From NCBI GenBank assembly GCA_019247695.1, contig JAFBAP010000090.1:1-41731 (forward strand): a stretch of DNA of 41,731 bases, read 5' to 3'. Below are positions 94 to 41,731 of the stretch, one piece after another (position 1 is the stretch's first letter; each line of letters opens with the position of its first letter). The stretch is from Verrucomicrobiota bacterium. Lineage in GTDB: Bacteria > Verrucomicrobiota > Verrucomicrobiia > Chthoniobacterales > JAFAMB01. A program made the translations under genes and the position numbers. Below the pieces are notes generated by a model that saw nothing but the letters and a program-made list of their open reading frames with translations, did not search any database and was not told the origin of the DNA.

Positions 94-95
94 GA

Positions 96-300
96 AATGC
101 CACAAATGCCACAAGTGAAAAAATGCCACAAATGGAAGAGGGTGTCGGGTAACGGGTAACGGGTAACGGGTAACGGGTAACGGGTAACGGGTAACGAGTA
201 ACGAGTAACGAGTAACGAGTAACGAGTAACGAGTAACGAGTAACGAGTGACGGGTAACGAGTGACGAGTGACGGGTAACGAGTGACGAGTGACGAGTGAC
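96..300 (+). repeat. ATGCCACAAATG motifs followed by heptamer array A (GRGTRNC)n
   Basis: Copies of ATGCCACAA(A)TG occur between about 97 and 135. They are followed by GGGTGTC (140-146) and 22 uninterrupted 7-bp units at 147-300: seven GGGTAAC, seven GAGTAAC, then a mixture of GAGTGAC and GGGTAAC. Because 7 is not a multiple of 3, the GGGTAAC strand shows a TAA in every frame within 21 bases. The opposite strand has no stops, which creates a spurious minus-strand frame. The array abuts the inverted repeat that begins at 301. Confidence 0.95.
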
Positions 301-702
301 GGGCGGTGAGACCCCACTGCCATTTAGTTAAGGACGGCAGGCCAGGTATTGCTTTCGTCCCGAAGGGACGGCTGATTTTAGCCAGGTACTTTAGTGCCTG
401 TGCGGGCGTGCCCCCGGGGTTGCGTCCCCTCGGGACGCCTGAAGCGGCGCGCCGAGGCCAGGCGGGCGTCAACGCTGGGGAGCCGTTCGGATTTTTGGCG
501 CCGAGGGTCGCACCGGGTTTGGCTGGCCGATTGGGAGTCGGCACCCTGCGGGCCAGCATTTCAGGCGTCCCGACGGGACGCGCTCCCTCTTAAATGCCCC
601 GTCCAGGGACTGAAGTCCCTGGCTAACCTCAGCCGTCCCTGCGGGACGAAAGCGCCCCCCTCTACCGGCCCTTAACTAAATGGCAGTGGGGTCTCACCGC
701 CC
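301..702. repeat. Long inverted-repeat element with nested hairpins
   Basis: The element is bounded by a perfect 33-bp inverted repeat at 301-333 and 670-702. Inside, mirrored hairpin modules recur: CGTCCCGAAGGGACG (356-370) and a CAGGTACT/AGTGCCTG hairpin (383-400) on the left are matched in reverse order by CCAGGGACTGAAGTCCCTGG (603-622) and CGTCCCTGCGGGACG (634-648) on the right. A second pair of hairpins lies at 422-438 and 565-581. No credible gene is inside. The structure resembles a REP/BIME-like or MITE-like palindromic element that could fold into a very long hairpin. Whether it is mobile cannot be seen from one copy. Confidence 0.85.
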
Positions 703-772
703 GTTACCCGTTACTCGTTACCCGTTACCCGTTACCCGTTACTCGTTACTCGTTACCCGTTACCCGTTCCTC
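703..772 (-). repeat. Heptamer array B, inverted relative to array A
   Basis: Ten 7-bp units (GTTACCC, GTTACTC and a final GTTCCTC) follow directly on the right arm of the inverted repeat, so arrays A and B face each other across the element. The last units lie inside the 3' end of the prenyltransferase gene and provide its TAA stop codon (complement of 760-762). Confidence 0.95.
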
Positions 773-10256: not shown

Positions 10257-10289
10257 ACCACCGTTCCAGCGCCAAAGCGTGACAGAACG

Positions 10290-10331
10290 CCCGACACCCG
10301 CCACCCGTCACCCGACACCCGCCACCCACCC
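10290..10331 (-). repeat. Heptamer array C between nuoJ and nuoK
   Basis: Units CCCGACA, CCCGCCA, CCCGTCA, CCCGACA, CCCGCCA and a degenerate CCCACCC. Read on the minus strand they are GGGTGTC, GGGTGGC and GGGTGAC, that is, the same GRGTRNC family as arrays A and B. The array ends 5 bases before the nuoK ATG and occupies the place of its ribosome-binding site. Confidence 0.85.
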
Positions 10332-15390: not shown

Positions 15391-15460
15391 CGCACCCGCT
15401 ACCCGCTACCCGTTACCCGCTACCCGTTACCCGTTACCCGTTACCCGTTACGAGTTACTC
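15391..15460 (-). repeat. Heptamer array D between nuoN and the PpiD-like gene
   Basis: Ten 7-bp units (CGCACCC, three GCTACCC, four GTTACCC, GTTACGA, GTTACTC). On the minus strand these are GGGTAGC/GGGTAAC units of the GRGTRNC family. The plus strand has no stop codons, so it creates a false in-frame extension upstream of the true start of the next gene at 15504. Confidence 0.92.
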
Positions 15461-16997: not shown

Positions 16998-16998
16998 A

Positions 16999-17284
16999 AA
17001 ATGCCACAAATGGAGGAGGTTTCGAGTGTCGAGTGTCGGGTGTCGGGTCGAATGCCACGCGTGACCGGCATCTCTATCTGTGACATTCTGCTTACCACGC
17101 CGGTGACGTTCCTTGATCCCTCAGCCATGTAATCTCAGGAAGAAGGGCTCCAAATCAGGGGCTCTTCCCTTCGTGGCATTACACCCGCCACCCGCTCTTC
17201 ATTACCCGTTACCCGCCACTTCTTCATTTGTGGCATTTTTCCGCTTATGGCATTTGTGGCATTCTTCCGCTGTGGCATTTTCCT
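16999..17284. repeat. Composite repeat spacer: companion motifs and heptamers in inverted orientation
   Basis: The left end reads AAAATGCCACAAATGG then GAGTGTC, GAGTGTC, GGGTGTC (17024-17044). The right end carries GCCACCC and GTTACCC units (about 17187-17214) followed by CATTTGTGGCATT copies (17225-17280), the inverse of the left motif. GAATGCCACG and CGTGGCATT recur further inside. The spacer thus forms an inverted composite, with ends touching the stop of the PpiD-like gene and the start of the TPR gene. No gene is apparent in it. Confidence 0.8.
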
Positions 17285-17638
17285 ATGGACGAGATCCCGG
17301 CTTCGGTAGAAACGATTTTTGACGACGCTAATGGCGACCTTGCCGTCGGAGATCTGGAGGCGGCGATTGAGAAATACCGCCGATGCGTCGAGATCGAGCC
17401 GGCCTTCTTTGACGGCTGGCATGCGCTGGGCATGGCGTTGATGAAAAACGGGCGTTTCCCCGAAGCCATTGTTGCAGGGCAAAAGGCCGTCGAGCTCCGC
17501 CCGAACGATCAGCTCGCCTGGTCCAGCCTCTCTTTATTTTACGTCCGTAACAACCAGATCAAGGAAGCGGAAGCCGCCGGCGTCAAGGCGCGCATTTTAT
17601 CCTGGGGCGGCAAAATCGCCAAGGAACCGGACCGCTAA
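17285..17638 (+). CDS. Small TPR-repeat protein
   Basis: A 117-residue soluble protein made almost wholly of tetratricopeptide repeats; units such as LEAAIEKYRRCVEIEPAF and FPEAIVAGQKAVELRPND show the A/G-Y/A-P pattern. TPR proteins scaffold protein-protein contacts; no partner or enzymatic role is visible. The ATG at 17285 was chosen because the open frame upstream is translated repeat sequence (TTTGTGGCATT). It lies 30 bp upstream of metG on the same strand and is probably co-transcribed with it. Confidence 0.75.
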   Translation: MDEIPASVETIFDDANGDLAVGDLEAAIEKYRRCVEIEPAFFDGWHALGMALMKNGRFPEAIVAGQKAVELRPNDQLAWSSLSLFYVRNNQIKEAEAAGVKARILSWGGKIAKEPDR

Positions 17639-17668
17639 GGAACCGCCAGCACCTTTTTTAATCACCTC

Positions 17669-19219: not shown

Positions 19220-20721
19220 CTTCCGGACCCGAGACCGCACCTACCCTCTTTCTTAACCCGCCCTCCTATCGCGGGTTCGACGGCGGTGCGGGCTCCCGTT
19301 ACCAGGCCCGGCGCGAGGTCCGGTCCTTCTGGTACCCGACCTGGCTGGCGCAACCGGCCGCGCTGATTCCAAACAGCCGGTTGGTGGATGCCCCGCCTCA
19401 CGACCTTGACTCGGCAGCGGTACTCCGTATCGCCCGCGATTACCCGCACGTGGTCATCCATACCTCAAGTCCGACCCTCGCAGGTGACGCAGCGCTCGCC
19501 GAAAACATCAAAAATCAGCGACCCGACGCAAAGGTCGGTTTTGTCGGTGCGCACGCGGCCGTGCTGCCCGAGGAAACCTTGCGGGCTTCCGAGGCGATTG
19601 ACTGGGTGGGCCGTAAAGAATTTGATTTTACCTGCCGCGAAGTTGCCGAGGGACGGCCGTTGCCACAGATCACCGGCTTGTCGTACCGCGGTGACGACGG
19701 CCGGATTCACCATAACCCGGAGCGCGAGCTCATCGCCGATTTCGATCGCCTGCCCTCGGTTATGGATGTCTACCGGCGCGACCTGGACATTTCGCGTTAT
19801 TTTATCGGTTACCTCAAGCACCCTTACGTGTCCCACTACTCCGGCCGGGGCTGCCCCGCCCAATGCACTTTTTGCCTTTGGCCGCAAACGGTCGGCGGTC
19901 ACCGGTATCGGGCGAAATCCCCTGACGCGGTTGCGGCCGAGATGGTCCACGCGCGCCGGCTCTTTCCGCAGGTAAAAGAGTTTTTTTTCGACGACGACAC
20001 CTTTACGGCTTACCAGCCGCGTGCCCGCGAGATCGCGCTCCGGCTCGGCCGGCTGGGCCTCACCTGGAGCTGCAACGCGCGGGCCAATGTCAGCTATGAA
20101 ACGTTGAAAGTGATGCACGATCACGGCTTGCGCTTGTTGCTCGTCGGCTACGAGAGCGGCGACCAGCAGATCCTCGACAACATCAAGAAGGGCGTCCGCC
20201 TTGAAGAGGCTAAACGGTTCACGCACGACTGTCACCGGCTCGGGATCACCATCCATGGCACCTTCATCCTCGGTCTGCCGGGCGAAACCCGGGAAACGAT
20301 TCAGAAAACGATCGCCTTCGCCAAGTCGCTGGACCTGTTCTCCATCCAGGTGAGCCTCGCCGCTCCCTACCCCGGCACCGAACTGTATCAACAAGCGTTA
20401 CGGTCCGGCTGGTTGAAAACGGATGGACATCTCGTGGGAGAGGCCGGAGAACAGCTTGCAGCCCTTGAATACGACGGCTTGTCCGAACAAGAAATCTTCA
20501 AGGCGGTAGAAGAATTCTACAAACGCTATTATTTCCGGTTGCGACCCGTCAGCCGCATTCTCTGGACCATGCTGCGCGACCCGGACGTGATGAAACGCCG
20601 GTTGCGTGAAGGTTGGGAATTTTTCGAATTTATGCGCCTGCGCAGTCACACGGCGGGAAAGCAGGAATCATCCGCAGAACACGCAGAAAAGAGAAAACGT
20701 CCACAGATTGACACAGATTAA
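19216..20721 (+). CDS. hpnJ: Hopanoid-biosynthesis radical SAM protein HpnJ
   Basis: Radical SAM enzyme with an N-terminal cobalamin-binding-like domain (residues about 1-150) and a radical SAM core with the [4Fe-4S] motif C213, C217, C220 (GCPAQCTFC). The N-terminus FLNPPSYRGFDGGAGSRYQA and RSFWYPTWLAQPA is the pattern I recognise from HpnJ, the enzyme involved in converting the aminosugar head of bacteriohopanetetrol to the cyclitol ether. Membrane hopanoids are its expected substrates. The gene overlaps metG by 4 bp; no other hopanoid gene is in the window. The last 20 or so residues (from about SSAEHAEKRKRPQ) and the TAA are encoded by the dispersed repeat CCGCAGAACACGCAG..., so the natural C-terminus has probably been replaced. 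Confidence 0.86.
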   Translation: MTSGPETAPTLFLNPPSYRGFDGGAGSRYQARREVRSFWYPTWLAQPAALIPNSRLVDAPPHDLDSAAVLRIARDYPHVVIHTSSPTLAGDAALAENIKNQRPDAKVGFVGAHAAVLPEETLRASEAIDWVGRKEFDFTCREVAEGRPLPQITGLSYRGDDGRIHHNPERELIADFDRLPSVMDVYRRDLDISRYFIGYLKHPYVSHYSGRGCPAQCTFCLWPQTVGGHRYRAKSPDAVAAEMVHARRLFPQVKEFFFDDDTFTAYQPRAREIALRLGRLGLTWSCNARANVSYETLKVMHDHGLRLLLVGYESGDQQILDNIKKGVRLEEAKRFTHDCHRLGITIHGTFILGLPGETRETIQKTIAFAKSLDLFSIQVSLAAPYPGTELYQQALRSGWLKTDGHLVGEAGEQLAALEYDGLSEQEIFKAVEEFYKRYYFRLRPVSRILWTMLRDPDVMKRRLREGWEFFEFMRLRSHTAGKQESSAEHAEKRKRPQIDTD

Positions 20722-20895
20722 AAGGATCCCGGCGGCAACTCTAAGGCCGACACTCGCACCACCCCCCACGATGCCACTCCGAACTCCGAACGCCGAACTC
20801 TGTCCCCCTCTTCCCGCCGTGTTCGCCGTGTTCGCCGTGTGAACTCTTACGTTGTGCCCGCTCTCTTCCGCCGTGCCCGCCGTGTGACCCAGACC
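20651..20895. repeat. Composite repeat of family 2 between hpnJ and bphP
   Basis: The core CATCCGCAGAACACGCAG...CCACAGATTGACACAGATTAA runs at about 20669-20721 and overlaps the hpnJ 3' end. Next come a conserved stretch (CTAAGG-GACACTCGCACC), a heptamer CTCCGAA array (20778-20798), and repeats of CCGCCGTG and TTCGCCGTG up to the bphP stop codon. The same ordered modules occur at 36152-36306 and twice after 41219. It fills the whole gap between two convergent genes. Confidence 0.88.
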
Positions 20896-24694: not shown

Positions 24695-24877
24695 ACAACC
24701 ACGCCATGAATGCCAACGCAAGTGCTGTCTGCGGCGCACGTTCCGCCGCCGGCTCTCTTTCCCGTCAAGGCCGGCCGTGGTTGGTGGGGAATTACGGCCC
24801 TTTGCCGCCTCCGCCGCTTGGACGGCGTGCGGCTTGATGGCGCGGAAAGGTCAGAGAAGACCGCCTTCTGCTCTCGA

Positions 24878-25335
24878 ACGGGGACAGGTCCCGCGCACAG
24901 GGACATGCTCTCGTCTCGAACGGGGACAGGTCCGCTTCCCCCAGTGAAGCGCACAGGGACAGGTCCCGCACACAGGGACATACTCCCGAACGGGGACAGG
25001 TCCGCTCGTCAGGTCCCGCAAACGGGGACAGGTCACAACGGCGCTGAGTTACGGGCGTTCCGGCCGCTACGCGTTGGGCCTTCACCCATTTCCTCCCGCG
25101 TCGAGGCACCCCATACCAATAGGGACAGGTCACAAGGGCGGGTCAGGCCTGAGCCGTTCAGCGGGGCCGCACGAATGGGGACAGACCCCATACCAATAGG
25201 GACAGACCCCATACCAATAGGGACAGGCCCCACGAATGGGGACAGACCCCACGAATGGGGACAGACCCCAATGGCGCTATGATGGCGCTATGAGGAATGC
25301 CGCGCCGCACGATCTCATCTTCAGAGGGACAGGCA
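24878..25335. repeat. Degenerate array of GGGACA mini-hairpins
   Basis: About 14 copies of GGGACA occur in 460 bp. In the left half they read GGGGACAGGTCC or AGGGACATRCTC at irregular spacing. On the right they form a regular 19-21 bp ladder (GGGACA at 25178, 25199, 25220, 25239, 25258) of the type AATGGGGACAGACCCC. Each unit is itself a small hairpin (GGGG-ACAGA-CCCC or GGGAC-AG-GTCCC). A remnant ends at about 25325. It is unlike CRISPR because the intervals are not unique. Similar hairpin units accompany REP-associated transposases in other bacteria, but no transposase is present here. Confidence 0.8.
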
Positions 25336-36132: not shown

Positions 36133-36151
36133 GGAGGGTTGAATTGAAAAG

Positions 36152-36383
36152 ATCATCCGCAGAACACGCAGAGAACGCAGAAAAGAGAGAAAACATCCAC
36201 AGATTACACAGATTGACACAGATTAACGTCACACGGCGGGCGCGACGTAAAAGACTCACACGGCGCCACGGCGGAACACGGCGACCACGGCGGAAAGAGG
36301 AACGGAAGACCTGACATTGGCGCCGCTTCCGCAAGCCGTTACCCGTTACCCGTCACCCGGCACCCGGTTTCATTCGTGGCATT
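36152..36383. repeat. Composite repeat: family-2 core plus heptamer array G and companion motif
   Basis: The CATCCGCAGAACACGCAG...ACAGATTAA core runs at 36154-36226, with an internal duplication of ACACAGATTG. It is followed by CACGGCGG-type repeats to about 36300, then four heptamers (GTTACCC, GTTACCC, GTCACCC, GGCACCC; 36338-36365) and CATTCGTGGCATTT (36370-36383). Both repeat families are joined here. The right part lies inside the 3' end of the convergent ATPase gene. Confidence 0.88.
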
Positions 36384-39300
36384 TCCTCAGGGCTGCACGC
36401 GCCGAGCCGGTGAACCTGCAACAGATCGGGAGGGACGGCCTCCCTGGCTAATTCGATCAGGTGAGCGTGGTGAGTGAAGAAGAGGACCTGGGTTTTCGGA
36501 CACAGCTCAGCCAGTACGCGGAAGGCGTCGCGTGCCCGGTCGTTGTCGAAGCTGATGAAAATATCGTCGGCGACAAACGGGATCGGCTCGGCGCTCTCCT
36601 CCAACTGCCGCTCCAGGCTGGCCAGGCGCAAGGCGAGGTAGAGCTGGTCCCGCGTCCCTTCACTCATTCCGGCCACCATCACCTCTTCGTCATGAGGGCG
36701 CACCCCCAGCAGCACCGGGCGATCTTTCTCGTCAAAGCCGGTCTTGAGAGACGCGAACGAATGCCGGGTCAGTTTCGGAAACAGCTCGCTCGCACGCCGG
36801 ATCACCGGCCCCTGGTTTTCTTCCCGGTAAATTTCGATTTGCTGGCGCAGGATGCTGCACGCGAGGCGAAGGCGCAGGTAGCGAGCGCTTAGAGATTCAA
36901 TTTGAGCCGCAGCCTGTTGGGCCTTGCCGGCGGCTTCTGCGGCGCGCTCGCTTCCGTCCATCGCTTCGAGCTCCGTTTGGAATTTGCCGCCGGCCGTTTG
37001 CAATTTTCCGATGGCTGCCTCCTGCTCCGCGATGCCGGCGGTGAGGGCCTCCGCCTCGGCTGCGAGCCGGCCCGGATTCACTTCCGCAAGCTCCGCGAGG
37101 AAGTCTTCAAGGGGAGTACCGCCGCTCAACGGCACGAGCGTGTGCACAAGCTGCTCCGCCTCAGAAGTAAGCTGGCGCGCCCGCGCCGCCCTCTGCTCCA
37201 TGGCCACAAGTTCATCGCGATCGGCGCATTGGGCTTGTTGCAGCAGGGAATCGAGATCGGAAGTTGCGCGGCGAACTTCCGCTTGGCTTTGCTCGATCGT
37301 GGCCTGCGCCTGGGCCAATTGTTCTTCCAGGGCTTTGCGGCGTTCGGCATCCCGTTGCGCTTGCATCAGGCGGCTTTGGAGTCCTGCCGCGGCCTGATCC
37401 GCCGGTACGCCGTGCAGATCGGCGGCAACCGCCGGCACGAGGTCCGTAACGTCTTTTTCGAACCGCACGACCATGGATTCCAGGGCCGCGATCTGGGCCA
37501 GGCGCTGTTCAGCATCTTTTGCCTTCTGATGATAAACGTCGATCCGACGCACCATCGCCAGGGCCTGAGCCGCGTCCAGCTTCTCGGCCGGCCCGAGCAC
37601 GGCAACGGCCGCATTCCATTGCTCCTGCCATCCGGCGATCCGTTCTGCGGTTTGCACTTTCTCACGCTCCGCCTTGTCGAATTCCCGCGTGCGCCGTTGG
37701 ACCTCCGCCGCCAGCGCCTCACGCCGGGTTCTCGCCTGCTCGAGATGGGAAAGGAGCTCGCGGCCGCAGTCGATCAAGGCCGCCAATCCGGCGCCCGGCG
37801 CGGCCGGTGCTCCAAGCGTCGCCAGCGCGTCACGAATTTCGGCGGAATGCCGATCCGCGAGTTCTTCCAGGCGCTGAACCGCGCCGGCTTCGGTGCCGCA
37901 CACGTCTAGCACCCGGAGCACCTCGGCACAGCGCCCGAGCCAGGCACGCATTTCGCGGGGGGGCGCCGGCTGGATTGCACTCGGGCTCCAGGCCGTTTCC
38001 CATTGGCCGGTCAGAACGCCCTTTCGATAGAGCAGCAACTCCACGTCCCGGCTCGCGTCGAGCAACCGTTCCTCAGTTTCCTCACGCAAGGCTAGCAGCT
38101 GGGCCAATTGCGCAGCCCGCCCGGCTTCGCGCCGCAAACGATCGGCGGCCGCGTCCGCCTCGGCGACCGCGTGCTCATAGGCTTCAACCAGCGATTTTCC
38201 GGGCTGAAACCGGTGTTCCGCAGAGTCGTCCCCGGCGCTTCCGAGCCAGGCACGCCGCACTTGTTGCCAGGTGCGGTCACGACGATCCCGCTTCAGTTCG
38301 AGCTCCCGTTCCGTCGGAACCTCACCGCGCAACTGCACGGCTTGAATTCGCGCGTCCGTTTCCCTGACCATTTCCTGCAACTCCTTAAGCTGTTGCTCAG
38401 CCGCCTTCAGTGCTTCACCGGCTTCCGCGAATTCCAACTCAAACCGGTCAACGGTTTCGATGGATGGCAAGGGCAACCTGGCCAGGTCCGGTCCCGTTCC
38501 GTTCCAACGCCCGAGACGGCTGATTTGCAACTCCGCCTGTTGCTGGAGCGTTTGCAACCTGGTACGCGCCTCCCGGAGTTGAGCTTCCAGATCGCCACCC
38601 TTTTGCGCGCGGGTTACGACCTGCCGGAGGTGCGCCGGATCGAGAGCGGCAGGGGTTGCGTTGAGCAGGTCCCGGCTCTGCGCCAGCTCTTCACCTGCCG
38701 TGCCTGCCCTTTCGGCGGCATCCTGCATGCGTTGGATGAGGGCCGGATACCGGTTGGCGAGCGACTCGATTCGGTCGCGTTCAATGGCAGACAAATCAAG
38801 TTTAGCGATCGCTTCACCGTTCAGCCTGGCTTTCAGGTCCTGGAGAATTGCGCCGGCCTCATCGCGGTCACGGCTTTCTCTGGTTCGAAGCGTGGGCAGG
38901 TCAGCAACCGCCTGGCGGAAGGCGCCGAGGCGCTGGTTCAGGGCCGTAATGGCCGCCGCTTGTACAATCAACGCTTCGGGCGCGTGCACCCCGGCGATTT
39001 CCGTTTCCAGCCGGCGGGCTTCGCGTCCGGCCTCCGCGACGCGGGCAGACGCATCCCGGAGTGTGCGTTCGGCCTCGGCGCGTTCCCGGGCCGCAGATTC
39101 CGGCAACGGCACCACCGTTCCAAGCGCGCTGAGTTCTGACCGCACCTCTCGGAGCCGCGCCGCAGGGGGCCAGGCAAACTGGAGACGCTCCAGGCGTTTT
39201 TGCTCGGCCCGCATCCGCCGGAGCTCACCCTGACGCTGCTCCAGTTCCGCCTCCAACTCAGCCCCAGCCTCCTGTTTCTTTGCCCAATCGGATGGTCTTA

Positions 39301-39904
39301 CCGACCATTCACGGCTCTGCTTGCGTGCCTGCTGGTATCTCTCGATCGCGCCGTTGATTAATGGCTGGCGTCCCCGTGGCTTGAAGATCGCCTCAGCCTG
39401 TCCTTCGAGTTCTCTCAACACCTTGTGCAAACCGGTGACCCCGGCACCCGCCTGGAAAAGGCTCTCCGCAAGATCGCCGCGGCCCTCCCGCAAATCCTCC
39501 CCCCCGCGCACCAGGGCTTCGTGATCCAGACGATGCACGCTGGTAAAGGCTTCCTCCGAAATGCCCCCGAGCATCTCGCCAAGCGTACTGTCCGGCAAAG
39601 GCTGGTCATCTCCGTCAAGGAGGGTTTTCTGCTGCCCTTTACGCCGGACGATCGTCAGGCGCGCCCCGCTCGAACTCAGCAGTTCCGCACGGATTCGCAG
39701 GTCGCGGCCCTTGTGCCGGAAAACGTCTGCGGTCCGCGCGGGAATCCCGTAAAACAGATTGGTCAGGCCCCGCAATGCGGTGCTTTTGCCGGCCTCATTC
39801 TCGCCGTAGATGAGATGGAAGTTTTCCTTTTCTCCATCGCCGAAGCGGAGGCGGACATTGCTCAGGCAGCCGAAGGCGACGAACTCAAGGGCGACAATTC
39901 TCAT
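36353..39904 (-). CDS. SbcC/YhaN-like AAA ATPase with long coiled coil
   Basis: A 1183-residue SMC/Rad50-type ATPase. Walker A is GENEAGKST (residues 34-42) in a typical N-terminal domain (MRIVALEFVAFG). A very long Glu/Arg/Ala-rich coiled-coil region occupies roughly residues 180-1000. The C-terminal lobe has a signature segment SEGTRDQLYLALRLASLE and Walker B PFVADDIFISFD. It is paired with an SbcD/YhaO-like nuclease by a 4-bp overlap, so the two probably form a DNA end-processing complex like SbcCD or Bacillus YhaNO. No Rad50-type zinc hook is recognised by eye. The last residues (EEMPRMKPGAG) and the TGA are encoded by the repeat composite. Confidence 0.88.
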   Translation of the reverse strand: MRIVALEFVAFGCLSNVRLRFGDGEKENFHLIYGENEAGKSTALRGLTNLFYGIPARTADVFRHKGRDLRIRAELLSSSGARLTIVRRKGQQKTLLDGDDQPLPDSTLGEMLGGISEEAFTSVHRLDHEALVRGGEDLREGRGDLAESLFQAGAGVTGLHKVLRELEGQAEAIFKPRGRQPLINGAIERYQQARKQSREWSVRPSDWAKKQEAGAELEAELEQRQGELRRMRAEQKRLERLQFAWPPAARLREVRSELSALGTVVPLPESAARERAEAERTLRDASARVAEAGREARRLETEIAGVHAPEALIVQAAAITALNQRLGAFRQAVADLPTLRTRESRDRDEAGAILQDLKARLNGEAIAKLDLSAIERDRIESLANRYPALIQRMQDAAERAGTAGEELAQSRDLLNATPAALDPAHLRQVVTRAQKGGDLEAQLREARTRLQTLQQQAELQISRLGRWNGTGPDLARLPLPSIETVDRFELEFAEAGEALKAAEQQLKELQEMVRETDARIQAVQLRGEVPTERELELKRDRRDRTWQQVRRAWLGSAGDDSAEHRFQPGKSLVEAYEHAVAEADAAADRLRREAGRAAQLAQLLALREETEERLLDASRDVELLLYRKGVLTGQWETAWSPSAIQPAPPREMRAWLGRCAEVLRVLDVCGTEAGAVQRLEELADRHSAEIRDALATLGAPAAPGAGLAALIDCGRELLSHLEQARTRREALAAEVQRRTREFDKAEREKVQTAERIAGWQEQWNAAVAVLGPAEKLDAAQALAMVRRIDVYHQKAKDAEQRLAQIAALESMVVRFEKDVTDLVPAVAADLHGVPADQAAAGLQSRLMQAQRDAERRKALEEQLAQAQATIEQSQAEVRRATSDLDSLLQQAQCADRDELVAMEQRAARARQLTSEAEQLVHTLVPLSGGTPLEDFLAELAEVNPGRLAAEAEALTAGIAEQEAAIGKLQTAGGKFQTELEAMDGSERAAEAAGKAQQAAAQIESLSARYLRLRLACSILRQQIEIYREENQGPVIRRASELFPKLTRHSFASLKTGFDEKDRPVLLGVRPHDEEVMVAGMSEGTRDQLYLALRLASLERQLEESAEPIPFVADDIFISFDNDRARDAFRVLAELCPKTQVLFFTHHAHLIELAREAVPPDLLQVHRLGACSPEEMPRMKPGAG

Positions 39905-41151
39905 GGCGGCTCGTTCGCGGCGAGCAAATGCAGAACCAGGAGCTGTTCGACATCCCCGAGCATTTCGCCGGTGATGGCAGCTTCATCTGAGAGAATCCGT
40001 TCACCCAGTTCAGCCGGCAGCTTGCGTCTGAGGTCTTGAAAATTCGCCGCCAATTCCCTCAGGCGAGCCGGGTCCGTCGTCAGCGCCCGGGTAAACCTGA
40101 CTAATTGGCCCAGGGGATCAGATTGTTGCGCGATGGCGTCAAGGTTGATGGGTGCGCGGGTGTTGAAGTCGACGCGTTCGATCCAGACCTGACCGAGGTC
40201 GTTACCCAGGGCACGCACGTCGGCGATGAATTCGTCCGGTCTGGTGGCCAACGCGCGGTGCGCCTCGCAGGAACCGCGCAGGGTCAACCGGACGGCGAGC
40301 AGACGGTCTCCGGAATTCCGAACCGCACGGCCCAGCGCCGCCTGCACCCGGGCCAGCAAATCGTCCGTGGCATTCAGGCCGCTGACGTCGAGATCGCATT
40401 CGTACCAGCGCACGACGTCGAGGACCCGATGCTCGATGACGGTTTCATGGTTGTCGTTGACGCTTACCAGCGTGCAGCCCTTTTCACCGGTCTCACGGAT
40501 GTGGCGACCCTGGAGGTTACCCGGAAACACAATCCAGGGCTCACCGGTGCTGAGCACTTCACGCCGGTGAATGTGACCGAGGGCCCAGTAGCTGTACCCC
40601 TTGGCGGCAAGGTCGTTCTGCGAACACGGAGCGTAGTTTTCGTGTCCGGGCCGGCCATCGGCGCTGGTGTGGAGGATACCGATATTGAATAGCCCCTCGA
40701 GCGGCGCCGGATAGGAGAGCGAGAGGTTTTCCGTCATGGCCTGGGTGGCAAAACTCCGGCCGTGAAGCGCCACCCCCAGGTGTTCCAACCGCATCGTTTG
40801 GGCTTCACGAGCGGCGAAACTGTGCACATTGTCCGGCAGACGAAGCTGGCGCGTGATCTTGCTTTCGGCATCGTGGTTGCCGCGGATCAGGAACACGGCG
40901 ATTTGCGCCTCCCGCAGCCGCGACATCTGCCGGCTGAAAAACAGGCCGGTGTTGTAATCGTGCCAATCCCCGTCATAGAGGTCACCGGCGATCAAAAGGA
41001 AATCGGTCTTTTCCTCCAGGCACAAGTCCACCAGCTTCTCGAACGCTTTGCGGGTCGCGCTGCGCAGGTCATGGACCGGCGCACCTTCGTAGCGCTCAAG
41101 TCCACGAAGGGGGCTGTCGAGATGGATGTCGGCCGCGTGGACAAATTTCAC
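39901..41151 (-). CDS. SbcD/YhaO-like Mre11-family DNA exonuclease
   Basis: A 416-residue metallophosphoesterase of the Mre11/SbcD family. Metal-binding motifs are complete: D8 and H10 (DIHLDSP), D57 (GDLYDG), N92-H93 (GNHD), H161, and H193/H195 (GHIH). The N-terminal nuclease domain is followed by a C-terminal helical part. It should act as the Mn-dependent nuclease partner of the ATPase encoded downstream with a 4-bp overlap, in repair or processing of DNA ends and hairpins. Processing of the palindromic repeats common in this genome would fit the known SbcCD substrate type, but that is speculation. Confidence 0.92.
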   Translation of the reverse strand: MKFVHAADIHLDSPLRGLERYEGAPVHDLRSATRKAFEKLVDLCLEEKTDFLLIAGDLYDGDWHDYNTGLFFSRQMSRLREAQIAVFLIRGNHDAESKITRQLRLPDNVHSFAAREAQTMRLEHLGVALHGRSFATQAMTENLSLSYPAPLEGLFNIGILHTSADGRPGHENYAPCSQNDLAAKGYSYWALGHIHRREVLSTGEPWIVFPGNLQGRHIRETGEKGCTLVSVNDNHETVIEHRVLDVVRWYECDLDVSGLNATDDLLARVQAALGRAVRNSGDRLLAVRLTLRGSCEAHRALATRPDEFIADVRALGNDLGQVWIERVDFNTRAPINLDAIAQQSDPLGQLVRFTRALTTDPARLRELAANFQDLRRKLPAELGERILSDEAAITGEMLGDVEQLLVLHLLAANEPP

Positions 41152-41218: not shown

Positions 41219-41731
41219 TCACACGGCGGGCACGGCGGAAGAAGTTCGGAGTTCGGGGCTCGGAGTTCGGAGATGTCGTATCACCGGGTCCAATCGTCCG
41301 GCGGAACGCGGTGAGGGGACAGAATCAGCCGCAGAACACGCAGAAGAACGCAGAAAAGAGAAAACATCCACAGATTACACAGATTGACACCGATTAAGGT
41401 CACACAGTGGGCACGGCGATTTGGCGGGCGCAACGTAAGAGTTCACACGGCGAACACGGCGAGCCACGGCGAACACGGCGGGAAGAGGAGAGAGTTCGGG
41501 GTTCGGGGCTCGGAGTTCGGAGGCGCCGTAGAACCAGGTCCGACCTCCCCCGAGGTGCACGCTCACACCGCGAGAAGACGGAATCATCCGCAGAACACGC
41601 AGAAGAACGCAGAAAAGAGAAAACATCCACAGATTACACAGATTAAGAGGACTTGGCGGTAAATCTAAGGTTGACACTCGCACCTAACCTCCATGATGCC
41701 GCTCCGAACTCCGAACTCCGAACTCCGAACT
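41219..41731. repeat. Two tandem family-2 composites with GTTCGGA heptamers
   Basis: The modules repeat in order: CACACGGCGGGCACGGCGG, heptamers GTTCGGA/GTTCGGG/GCTCGGA (41244-41271), the core CCGCAGAACACGCAGAAGAA to ACACCGATTAA (41329-41397), then CACGGCGAA 9-mers (41445-41480), heptamers again (41494-41521), a second core (41584-41646), and a final CTCCGAA heptamer array (41702-41731) that runs off the window. The two cores are nearly identical over about 60 bp. The first 65 bp after the SbcD-like start (41152-41218) hold no recognised feature. No gene is found here; short frames are translated repeat. Confidence 0.9.

Follow-up and report, generated by a model that had tools for sequence, protein, structure and literature searches.

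The repeats at the end of the window (the whole stretch of DNA that we analysed, a contig of 41,731 nucleotides from a 5.19 Mb draft genome) belong to a non-coding composite inverted-repeat element, of which two copies are present there, the second truncated where the contig stops. We put the probability at about 55% that this element is a non-autonomous, BOX- or MITE-like composite palindrome of intergenic DNA, moved in trans, whose arrays of 7- and 9-mers change by slippage. The heptamer arrays found here form layers around the fixed core of a palindromic element, and the 18-mer of one of its modules recurs across many phyla. For a patchy heptamer shared by distant bacteria, the pertinent passages of an earlier report suggest horizontal transmission by a mechanism that was not evident (PMC4679880). 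Through the palindromic element and its 18-mer, the question of horizontal spread of such patchy heptamers becomes testable.

Copies of the element in the window

An earlier note on this DNA had described several modules recurring in the same order near 20.7, 36.2 and 41.2-41.7 kb. The core motif CACAGATTNNNACAGATTAA (up to 2 mismatches) was indeed found at all three sites, at positions 20702, 36207 and 41378, with none expected from 100 dinucleotide shuffles of the window. CTCTAAGGTTGACACTCGCACC (up to 3 mismatches) was present at 20739 and 41663, again with none expected from the shuffle control, and GTTCGGRGTTCGGR (up to 2 mismatches) gave 12 matches in the window versus a mean of 2.1 from the shuffles. 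These cluster at 20778-20798, 41244-41271, 41494-41521 and 41703-41730; a lone match at 40310, with two mismatches, is likely due to chance. The 20.7 kb and 41.2-41.7 kb sites are the only ones in the window at which all of the named modules occur together. At 36.2 kb, mismatch-tolerant pattern searches detected neither GTTCGG heptamers nor the CTAAGG/GACACTCGCACC stretch, so that the earlier description is confirmed in part.

Read on the forward strand, the 41.2-41.7 kb stretch is made up of an incomplete copy, A, followed by copy B. Copy A begins with the start of a left arm (N3z, TCACACGGCGGGCACGGCGG; 41219..41238), recognised by reading the window and from the arms of other copies. It continues with an array of GTTCGGR heptamers (H1; 41244..41271) found by pattern search, a U module (GTCGTATCACCGGGTCC...; 41272..41325), for which 41222-41385 aligns with positions 72-251 of the query, and N1 (CCGCAGAACACGCAGAAGAACGCAGAAAAGAG) plus N2 (CATCCACAGATTACACAGATTGACACCGATTAA) at 41326..41397, identified by repeat comparison and pattern search. 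In copy B, a left arm of N3z/N3a and an array of CACGGCGAA nonamers (N3; 41400..41483, with a 9-bp period at 41445-41480) is followed by GTTCGGR heptamers (41494..41521; pattern search), U (41522..41582; module parsing), N1 plus N2 (41583..41646), which include CCACAGATTACACAGATT, the 18-mer shared with other phyla, and T (CTAAGGTTGACACTCGCACC...CATGATGCCG; 41657..41701; pattern search). The window then ends in an inverted, minus-strand array of TCCGAAC heptamers (41702..41731), the right arm of copy B lying beyond it.

The remaining two copies with a core, both on the plus strand, are reduced in different ways. At 20645..20888 a short left arm is followed by N1, N2, T, inverted heptamers and an inverted CACGGCG arm; this copy has no U and no left heptamer array, its GTTCGG heptamers being confined to the inverted right half. 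The copy at 36151..36385 has N1 and N2 (the CGCAGA/CACAGATT modules), a CACGGCG arm, inverted ACCCGTT heptamers of the first family and CATTCGTGGCATT, and is devoid of a GTTCGG array and of T. The direct joining of two heptamer families at 36.3 kb, which had been noted previously, is thus seen here as CACGGCG followed by ACCCGTT heptamers.

Outer layers also occur by themselves. On the plus strand at 95..301, TGCCACAAA nonamers and then GGGTAAC/GAGTAAC/GAGTGAC heptamers form a left arm that is matched by an inverted arm of ACCCGTT heptamers at 700..768 on the minus strand; the complementarity between 231-333 and 670-772 is 87% over 103 nt. Minus-strand heptamers are also found at 10285..10330 (CACCCGC/CACCCGT, a few tens of bases past a stop codon) and at 15394..15458 (an ACCCGTT array), and 16998..17283 holds an outer-layer composite to which no strand was assigned (TGCCACAAATG, GTGTCGG heptamers ... 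ACCCG heptamers, CATTTGTGGCATT).

The window is a whole contig that ends inside a CTCCGAA array, and among the matches listed four other contigs of the genome (C1, C5, C17 and C23) start with CTCCGAA-type arrays; the repeats seem to break the assembly. A search of the window against Rfam returned only a tRNA and one Acido-Lenti-1 match (603-648), the element itself having no match at gathering score. A separate cluster of short repeats (GGGGACAGGTCCC, GGGGACAGACCCCA) lies at 24872-25271. Between two palindromic repeats, at 36353-41151 on the minus strand, a gene for an AAA_27 ATPase adjoins a metallophosphoesterase gene, a pair that may be of the SbcC/SbcD type. SbcC/SbcD are nucleases that cut DNA hairpins.

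Architecture of the element in its own genome

Across the genome to which the window belongs we found 75 exact occurrences of CACAGATTNNNACAGATTAA and 136 of CCACAGATTACACAGATT, with none for either reversed pattern, and the 338-bp stretch 41394-41731 aligned with at least 190 pieces (40 of 421 first-look candidates scored). The canonical order of the element is N3z/N3a/N3 (the CACGGCG arm, with CACGGCGAA nonamers), H1 (GTTCGGA), U, N1 (CGCAGAACA nonamers), N2 (CACAGATTA nonamers), T, and inverted H1 and N3. Further inverted outer layers are H2, consisting of GGGTAAC and GGGTGTC heptamers, and N4, consisting of TGCCACAAA nonamers. The link between the heptamer families can accordingly be extended from a junction at one site, as arrays of GGGTAAC and of GTTCGGA both serve as layers within the same palindromes.

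Using module patterns and signs that were themselves defined on this genome, 58 sources, some of them overlapping, were parsed into 76 regions, 66 of which contained two or more module types. In these 66 regions the core order U-N1-N2-T was kept in 167 of 180 pairs, all 358 pairs of outer modules of opposite sign faced inward, and the outside-in order of the layers was followed in 189 of 247 pairs; shuffling of order or orientation gave a mean of 50% for all three measures, with 66% as the largest value for the first two. The looser order of the layers is largely because GTTCGGA arrays flank the CACGGCG arm on either side. The existence of ordered modules as such is borne out by these counts. 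Independent assortment of the modules, the finding that the earlier note had set against its proposal, was not seen within the core, but the order of the layers is less strict, and module content differs at sites compared with the same-genus genome. The non-repetitive modules U and T travel with the arrays in fixed order, and the element does not fit the class of simple heptamer satellites (STRR/SSR).

Eight of 13 bounded copies outside the window measured 424-466 bp, and the rest ranged within 332-571 bp. When folded as single-stranded DNA, a complete copy (L284:1442-1875) forms one very long hairpin (-145.8 kcal/mol, z -13.7; single copy), and an RNA fold of the truncated window copy gave a z of -2.9. 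Tandem arrays in approximately 295 kb of loci from this genome, mostly picked for repeats, numbered 123 for period 7 and 94 for period 9, versus 5 for period 6, 12 for period 8 and 11 for period 10. The corresponding counts for periods 6 to 10 in 154 kb of loci from a genome of the same genus were 6, 9, 1, 14 and 1, the 7-mers being unremarkable there. A common generating mechanism behind the 7-bp period, as proposed in the earlier note, is possible. Arms of the same copy were 90.5% identical versus 89.3% for arms of different copies (12 copies; 1987 of 20000 permutations; not significant), and this lack of significant likeness within copies speaks against one arm being copied from the other.

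Turnover of sites and sequence dialects among relatives

Syntenic blocks shared with the same-genus genome (G327) are 76-90% identical, and those of one region (L292) are spread over several G327 contigs. At one site, 392 bp in the genome of the window, with a copy directly past a stop codon, correspond to 12 bp in the same-genus genome; the copy within this stretch has no left CACGGCG arm. At another stop codon both genomes carry GTTCGG-type palindromes with different interiors, the one in the same-genus genome being short and accompanied by a gene. For the window sites, the CACCCGC heptamer stretch at 10.3 kb is missing from the orthologous place, both genomes have heptamer arrays at 15.4 kb, in changed form, and the equivalent intergenic slots for 17.0, 36.2 and 41.2 kb hold different modules. 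Intergenic stretches of 100, 110 and 173 bp that contain no modules, all from the same 20 kb of the window's genome as the 392-bp stretch, are likewise missing or much shorter in the same-genus genome. Since such module-free differences are common, the single empty site is weak evidence for insertion, and loss in the same-genus genome could also explain it. Opposite 17638-17645, at a stop codon, the same-genus genome has an 80-bp palindrome (L249 2932-3020) that is missing from the window, is unrelated to the composite and is possibly another MITE.

Individual genomes use their own versions of the repeats. Three consecutive GTTCGGA units gave 670 overlapping matches in the genome of the window, 2 in G333 and none in the other 22 of 24 genomes, the same-genus one included. 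By hand count and allowing 1 mismatch, the dialect CCACAGATTACGCAGATT occurred at 33 of 55 places of the same-genus genome G327, and CCGCAGATTACACAGATT at 31 of 33 places of genome G297. Of 288 genomes from the phylum, 11 contained exact CCACAGATTACACAGATT, and of 57 from the order, 15 contained it with up to 1 mismatch; both figures count the window's own genome, and the control was 0 in both cases.

The 18-mer in other phyla

Among GTDB species genomes, CCACAGATTACACAGATT was found at 120 loci or more, where by our own estimate about 7 chance matches are expected for the whole collection. The 120 listed loci represent 16 named bacterial phyla and one archaeal phylum (a single locus), with 6 loci having no named phylum; 60 of them belong to Bacteroidota, and several phyla have one locus each. 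In 23 genomes picked for having a match, the number of occurrences ranged from 2 to 266 (up to 1 mismatch, both hairpin arms counted), with all reversed controls at 0. The maxima per phylum were 266 in Planctomycetota, 103 in Bacteroidota, 102 in Pseudomonadota, 65 in Bacillota, 46 in Lentisphaerota, 26 in Spirochaetota, 23 in both Chloroflexota and Nitrospirota, 22 in Myxococcota and 9 in Acidobacteriota. Nine or more occurrences were therefore present in ten named bacterial phyla, besides Verrucomicrobiota as represented by the genome of the window. Two genomes of no named phylum had 120 and 158 occurrences, and low counts came from a Methanophagales genome (5), Cloacimonadota (2) and Latescibacterota (2). 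Many of the genomes are metagenome bins, for which contamination is possible in single lineages; judging by their titles, the isolates among them are from Bacteroidota and Pseudomonadota.

The 18-mer often forms a hairpin. The pattern AAT[CT][CT]G[CT]G lay within 200 bp downstream of 78 of the 137 instances for which the downstream sequence was long enough, versus 3.1 expected from base shuffles, and within 200 bp upstream of 9 instances of the same set. At least one inverted partner was found for 65 of the 120 listed loci, including only 2 of 15 in Planctomycetota. In 42 distinct hairpins, each counted once, the bases just outside the arms covary. The first base was complementary to its counterpart outside the other arm in 41 hairpins, where re-pairing gave an expectation of 14.4; the figures were 31 versus 15.1 for the second base, 28 versus 17.1 for the third and 19 versus 16.5 for the fourth. 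The signal was weaker outside Bacteroidota (first base, 19 of 20 with 11.6 expected; second base, 15 of 20 with 13.9 expected), and another count, in which some loci were counted on both strands, gave 57 of 58 for the first base. A reading of TTATCCACAG as a DnaA box, based on the box consensus, was abandoned, since lineages differ in the bases that lie beyond the arm.

Similar tandem nonamers, CACGAATTT, CGCAAAGAA and CGCAGATTT, lie near the 18-mer, some of them being variants of its motif. Among arrays within 500 bp of the motif, 9-mers were enriched (20 of 60 versus 10.2 expected, although several are motif variants and three come from one genome) and 8-mers weakly so (7 of 25 versus 4.0), while 7-mers (13 of 76 versus 11.8) and 6-mers (0 of 28 versus 3.7) showed no enrichment. 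It is conceivable, at somewhat worse than even odds, that CCACAGATTACACAGATT is the tip of a superfamily, not yet described, of hairpin repeats that have spread horizontally and have tandem-nonamer arms (CACAGATTA, CGCAGATTA, CACGAATTT, CGCAAAGAA and others); this superfamily would be many-copy in at least 11 named bacterial phyla, and perhaps an archaeon, and would be moved by a widespread enzyme. The Verrucomicrobiota composite would then be a built-up member that nests several families and heptamer arrays in one palindrome. Searches of open-access text for the motif, heptamer and nonamer-variant sequences returned no description, and searches by subject led to papers on heptamers, satellites, REPs, BOX and MITEs; subscription papers, preprints and supplements lay outside their scope.

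Occurrence in viral and plasmid sequences

A 28-base pattern had no match in the viral collection. The 18-mer was found in 30 stretches of viral contigs, which is above chance by a rough estimate, and 8 of the 30 had an inverted partner within 200 bp. One viral contig of 29.7 kb, IMGVR_UViG_3300037264_001851 (L326, L329), carries 11 exact 18-mers and may be misassigned host DNA. When the 78-base N1-N2 stretch was compared by blastn with plasmids and phages, only short matches with E values of 0.2 or worse were obtained; among these, the CACAGATT part was matched perfectly over 19-20 bases in records of Bacteroides, of Persicobacter and of a few faecal phages.

A hairpin from Bacteroides rodentium matched 17 plasmid records, 16 from Bacteroides finegoldii and 1 from Haliscomenobacter. 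Since one of the matching B. finegoldii records carries carA and carB, the plasmid records of this species may be pieces of the chromosome. A 131-base hairpin region of B. fragilis had no match in E. coli at E values up to 1. Comparison of locus L127 with a B. finegoldii record showed that the hairpin is missing at that place, with divergence too high for exact ends, and a search for an empty Bacteroides site with L138 gave short matches only.

How the element may spread

Under the preferred reading of a composite palindrome moved in trans, an enzyme that recognises the hairpin or the arms would copy or move the element, or would have done so in the past, a mode of spread already suggested for BOX and other MITE-like repeats. 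The arrays of 7- and 9-mers would then grow by polymerase slippage, and the layers would be mixed as copies recombine with each other. The element probably has no dedicated host function, and where it lies inside an operon it would be transcribed and could alter the mRNA. An all-against-all comparison of ORFs from loci L031-L170 revealed no gene linked to the cross-phylum motif, the widest ORF cluster covering 7 of 140 loci, and no linked transposase, recombinase or reverse transcriptase. Seven loci have main ORFs between distant N2-type arms, and comparison of four of these ORFs with Pfam gave a P450, a SpoU methylase, a DnaB and one unassigned protein. Inspection by eye of the ends of 14 copies, which the outer layers blur, revealed no target-site duplication, and none was clear at the one nearly empty site.

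The absence of a linked gene is also what would be expected if the arrays had grown in place without any mobiliser, with slippage making the 7- and 9-mers, fold-back template switching inverting them, and recombination between sites spreading and homogenising them. Heptamers are over-represented in bacteria, for which slippage is the explanation offered in the sections of PMC4692102 that treat them, and the window's genome and its same-genus relative share sites that differ in the type and length of their arrays. The module-free differences between these two genomes further strengthen this account and weaken the preferred reading. We nevertheless judge it unlikely, as U and T, which are not repetitive, accompany the arms in a fixed order, a whole copy is missing at the site with the 12-bp gap, and the homogenisation of arms within copies that is expected of fold-back copying was not significant. 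An element selected for regulation near gene ends, as a terminator, an mRNA stabiliser or a protein-binding array, appears more doubtful still. In its favour, 9 copies in the window's genome have a left neighbour that is read in their direction, and for 8 of them its stop codon lies 0-24 bp away, as judged from crude ORF calls and ends set by hand; in addition, a complete copy forms a strong hairpin, and the end bases of the hairpin covary in other phyla. No clear orientation bias accompanies this proximity, however: the cross-phylum sites comprise 55 tandem, 16 convergent and 14 divergent gaps, plus 10 sites inside ORFs, versus 253, 67 and 83 for all ORF gaps at these loci, and in the window's genome the copies lie in 10 tandem, 4 convergent and 1 divergent gaps versus 38, 10 and 10. 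The patchy distribution within the phylum and the species-specific dialects likewise argue against selection for such a role.

Mobilisation by one of the genome's Y1 tyrosine transposases, with the repeats acting as REPs or TIRs of a RAYT/TIRYT system, we consider very improbable. The window's genome does have two Y1_Tnp matches, and at one of the Y1 loci (L200) a CACAGATT pair lies approximately 360 bp from the gene, on a single side. Precedents exist in RAYT-like genes with long flanking TIRs, which make up families of repeats, as set out in parts of PMC3733652. The association with RAYT or IS200-type transposases that the earlier note had recommended looking for nonetheless failed to appear, as 23 of 24 genomes have Y1_Tnp whether or not they contain the repeats, and a different repeat lies on both sides of the RAYTs in the window's genome and its same-genus relative. 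Furthermore, at none of 16 Y1 loci did CACAGATT-type pairs lie on the two sides of the gene, and a home-made, Verrucomicrobiota-based profile gave no Y1 match in loci L051-L170. Since neither a target duplication nor a mobiliser was found and the RAYT test failed, the composite is not filed as a MITE or a REP.

Comparison with known repeat systems

A close likeness in architecture is to BOX of Streptococcus pneumoniae. In the sections of PMC3049150 devoted to it, BOX also has modules in a fixed order, the inner ones in tandem and variable in number; it is bounded by terminal inverted repeats, is predicted to form a stem-loop and often overlaps the 3' ends of genes. This comparison is one of architecture and not of sequence; BOX has a single tandem module (boxB) versus layered 7- and 9-mer arrays here, and its TIRs resemble a known transposon (PMC3049150). 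A minisatellite within a MITE of Porphyromonas gingivalis, described for that one species in the relevant part of PMC4596501, is similar in having a tandem array inside a MITE.

Intergenic tandem 7-mers that are many-copy and patchy over distant taxa, as here, include GGGAATC of Xanthomonas and GGGGA(C/T)T of Nostoc, with inverted pairs mentioned for the former (PMC4692102), and TAACTGA of Beggiatoaceae, Cyanobacteria and Bacteroidetes (PMC4679880). In the passages of these two reports that concern them, such heptamers are described as arrays, in contrast to the layers of a fixed-core palindrome found here. REPs and BIMEs with their RAYTs, and TIRtrons, are likewise dispersed intergenic palindromes in mosaic clusters, but REPs are given a length of 20-40 bp in the account of PMC3733652, compared with 332-571 bp for the 13 bounded copies here. 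Moreover, a REP or BIME flanks its RAYT gene, while the RAYTs of the window's genome and its relative carry another repeat.

Two observations concern other mobile or repeated sequences in these genomes. At G000:C19:62262-62624 (L182, L201), the genome of the window has a second Y1 transposase beside a reading frame that is TnpB-like by eye, as in IS605 elements. The Acido-Lenti-1 motif (RF01687), presented as a candidate non-coding RNA in the pertinent part of PMC2864571, behaves as a REP: with 150 scored candidates in each genome, it has at least 106 matches in the genome of the window, at least 146 in G083 and at least 80 in G326, and in the last of these genomes a Y1/RAYT gene lies between two oppositely oriented copies (G326:C298:6143-6803; L188).
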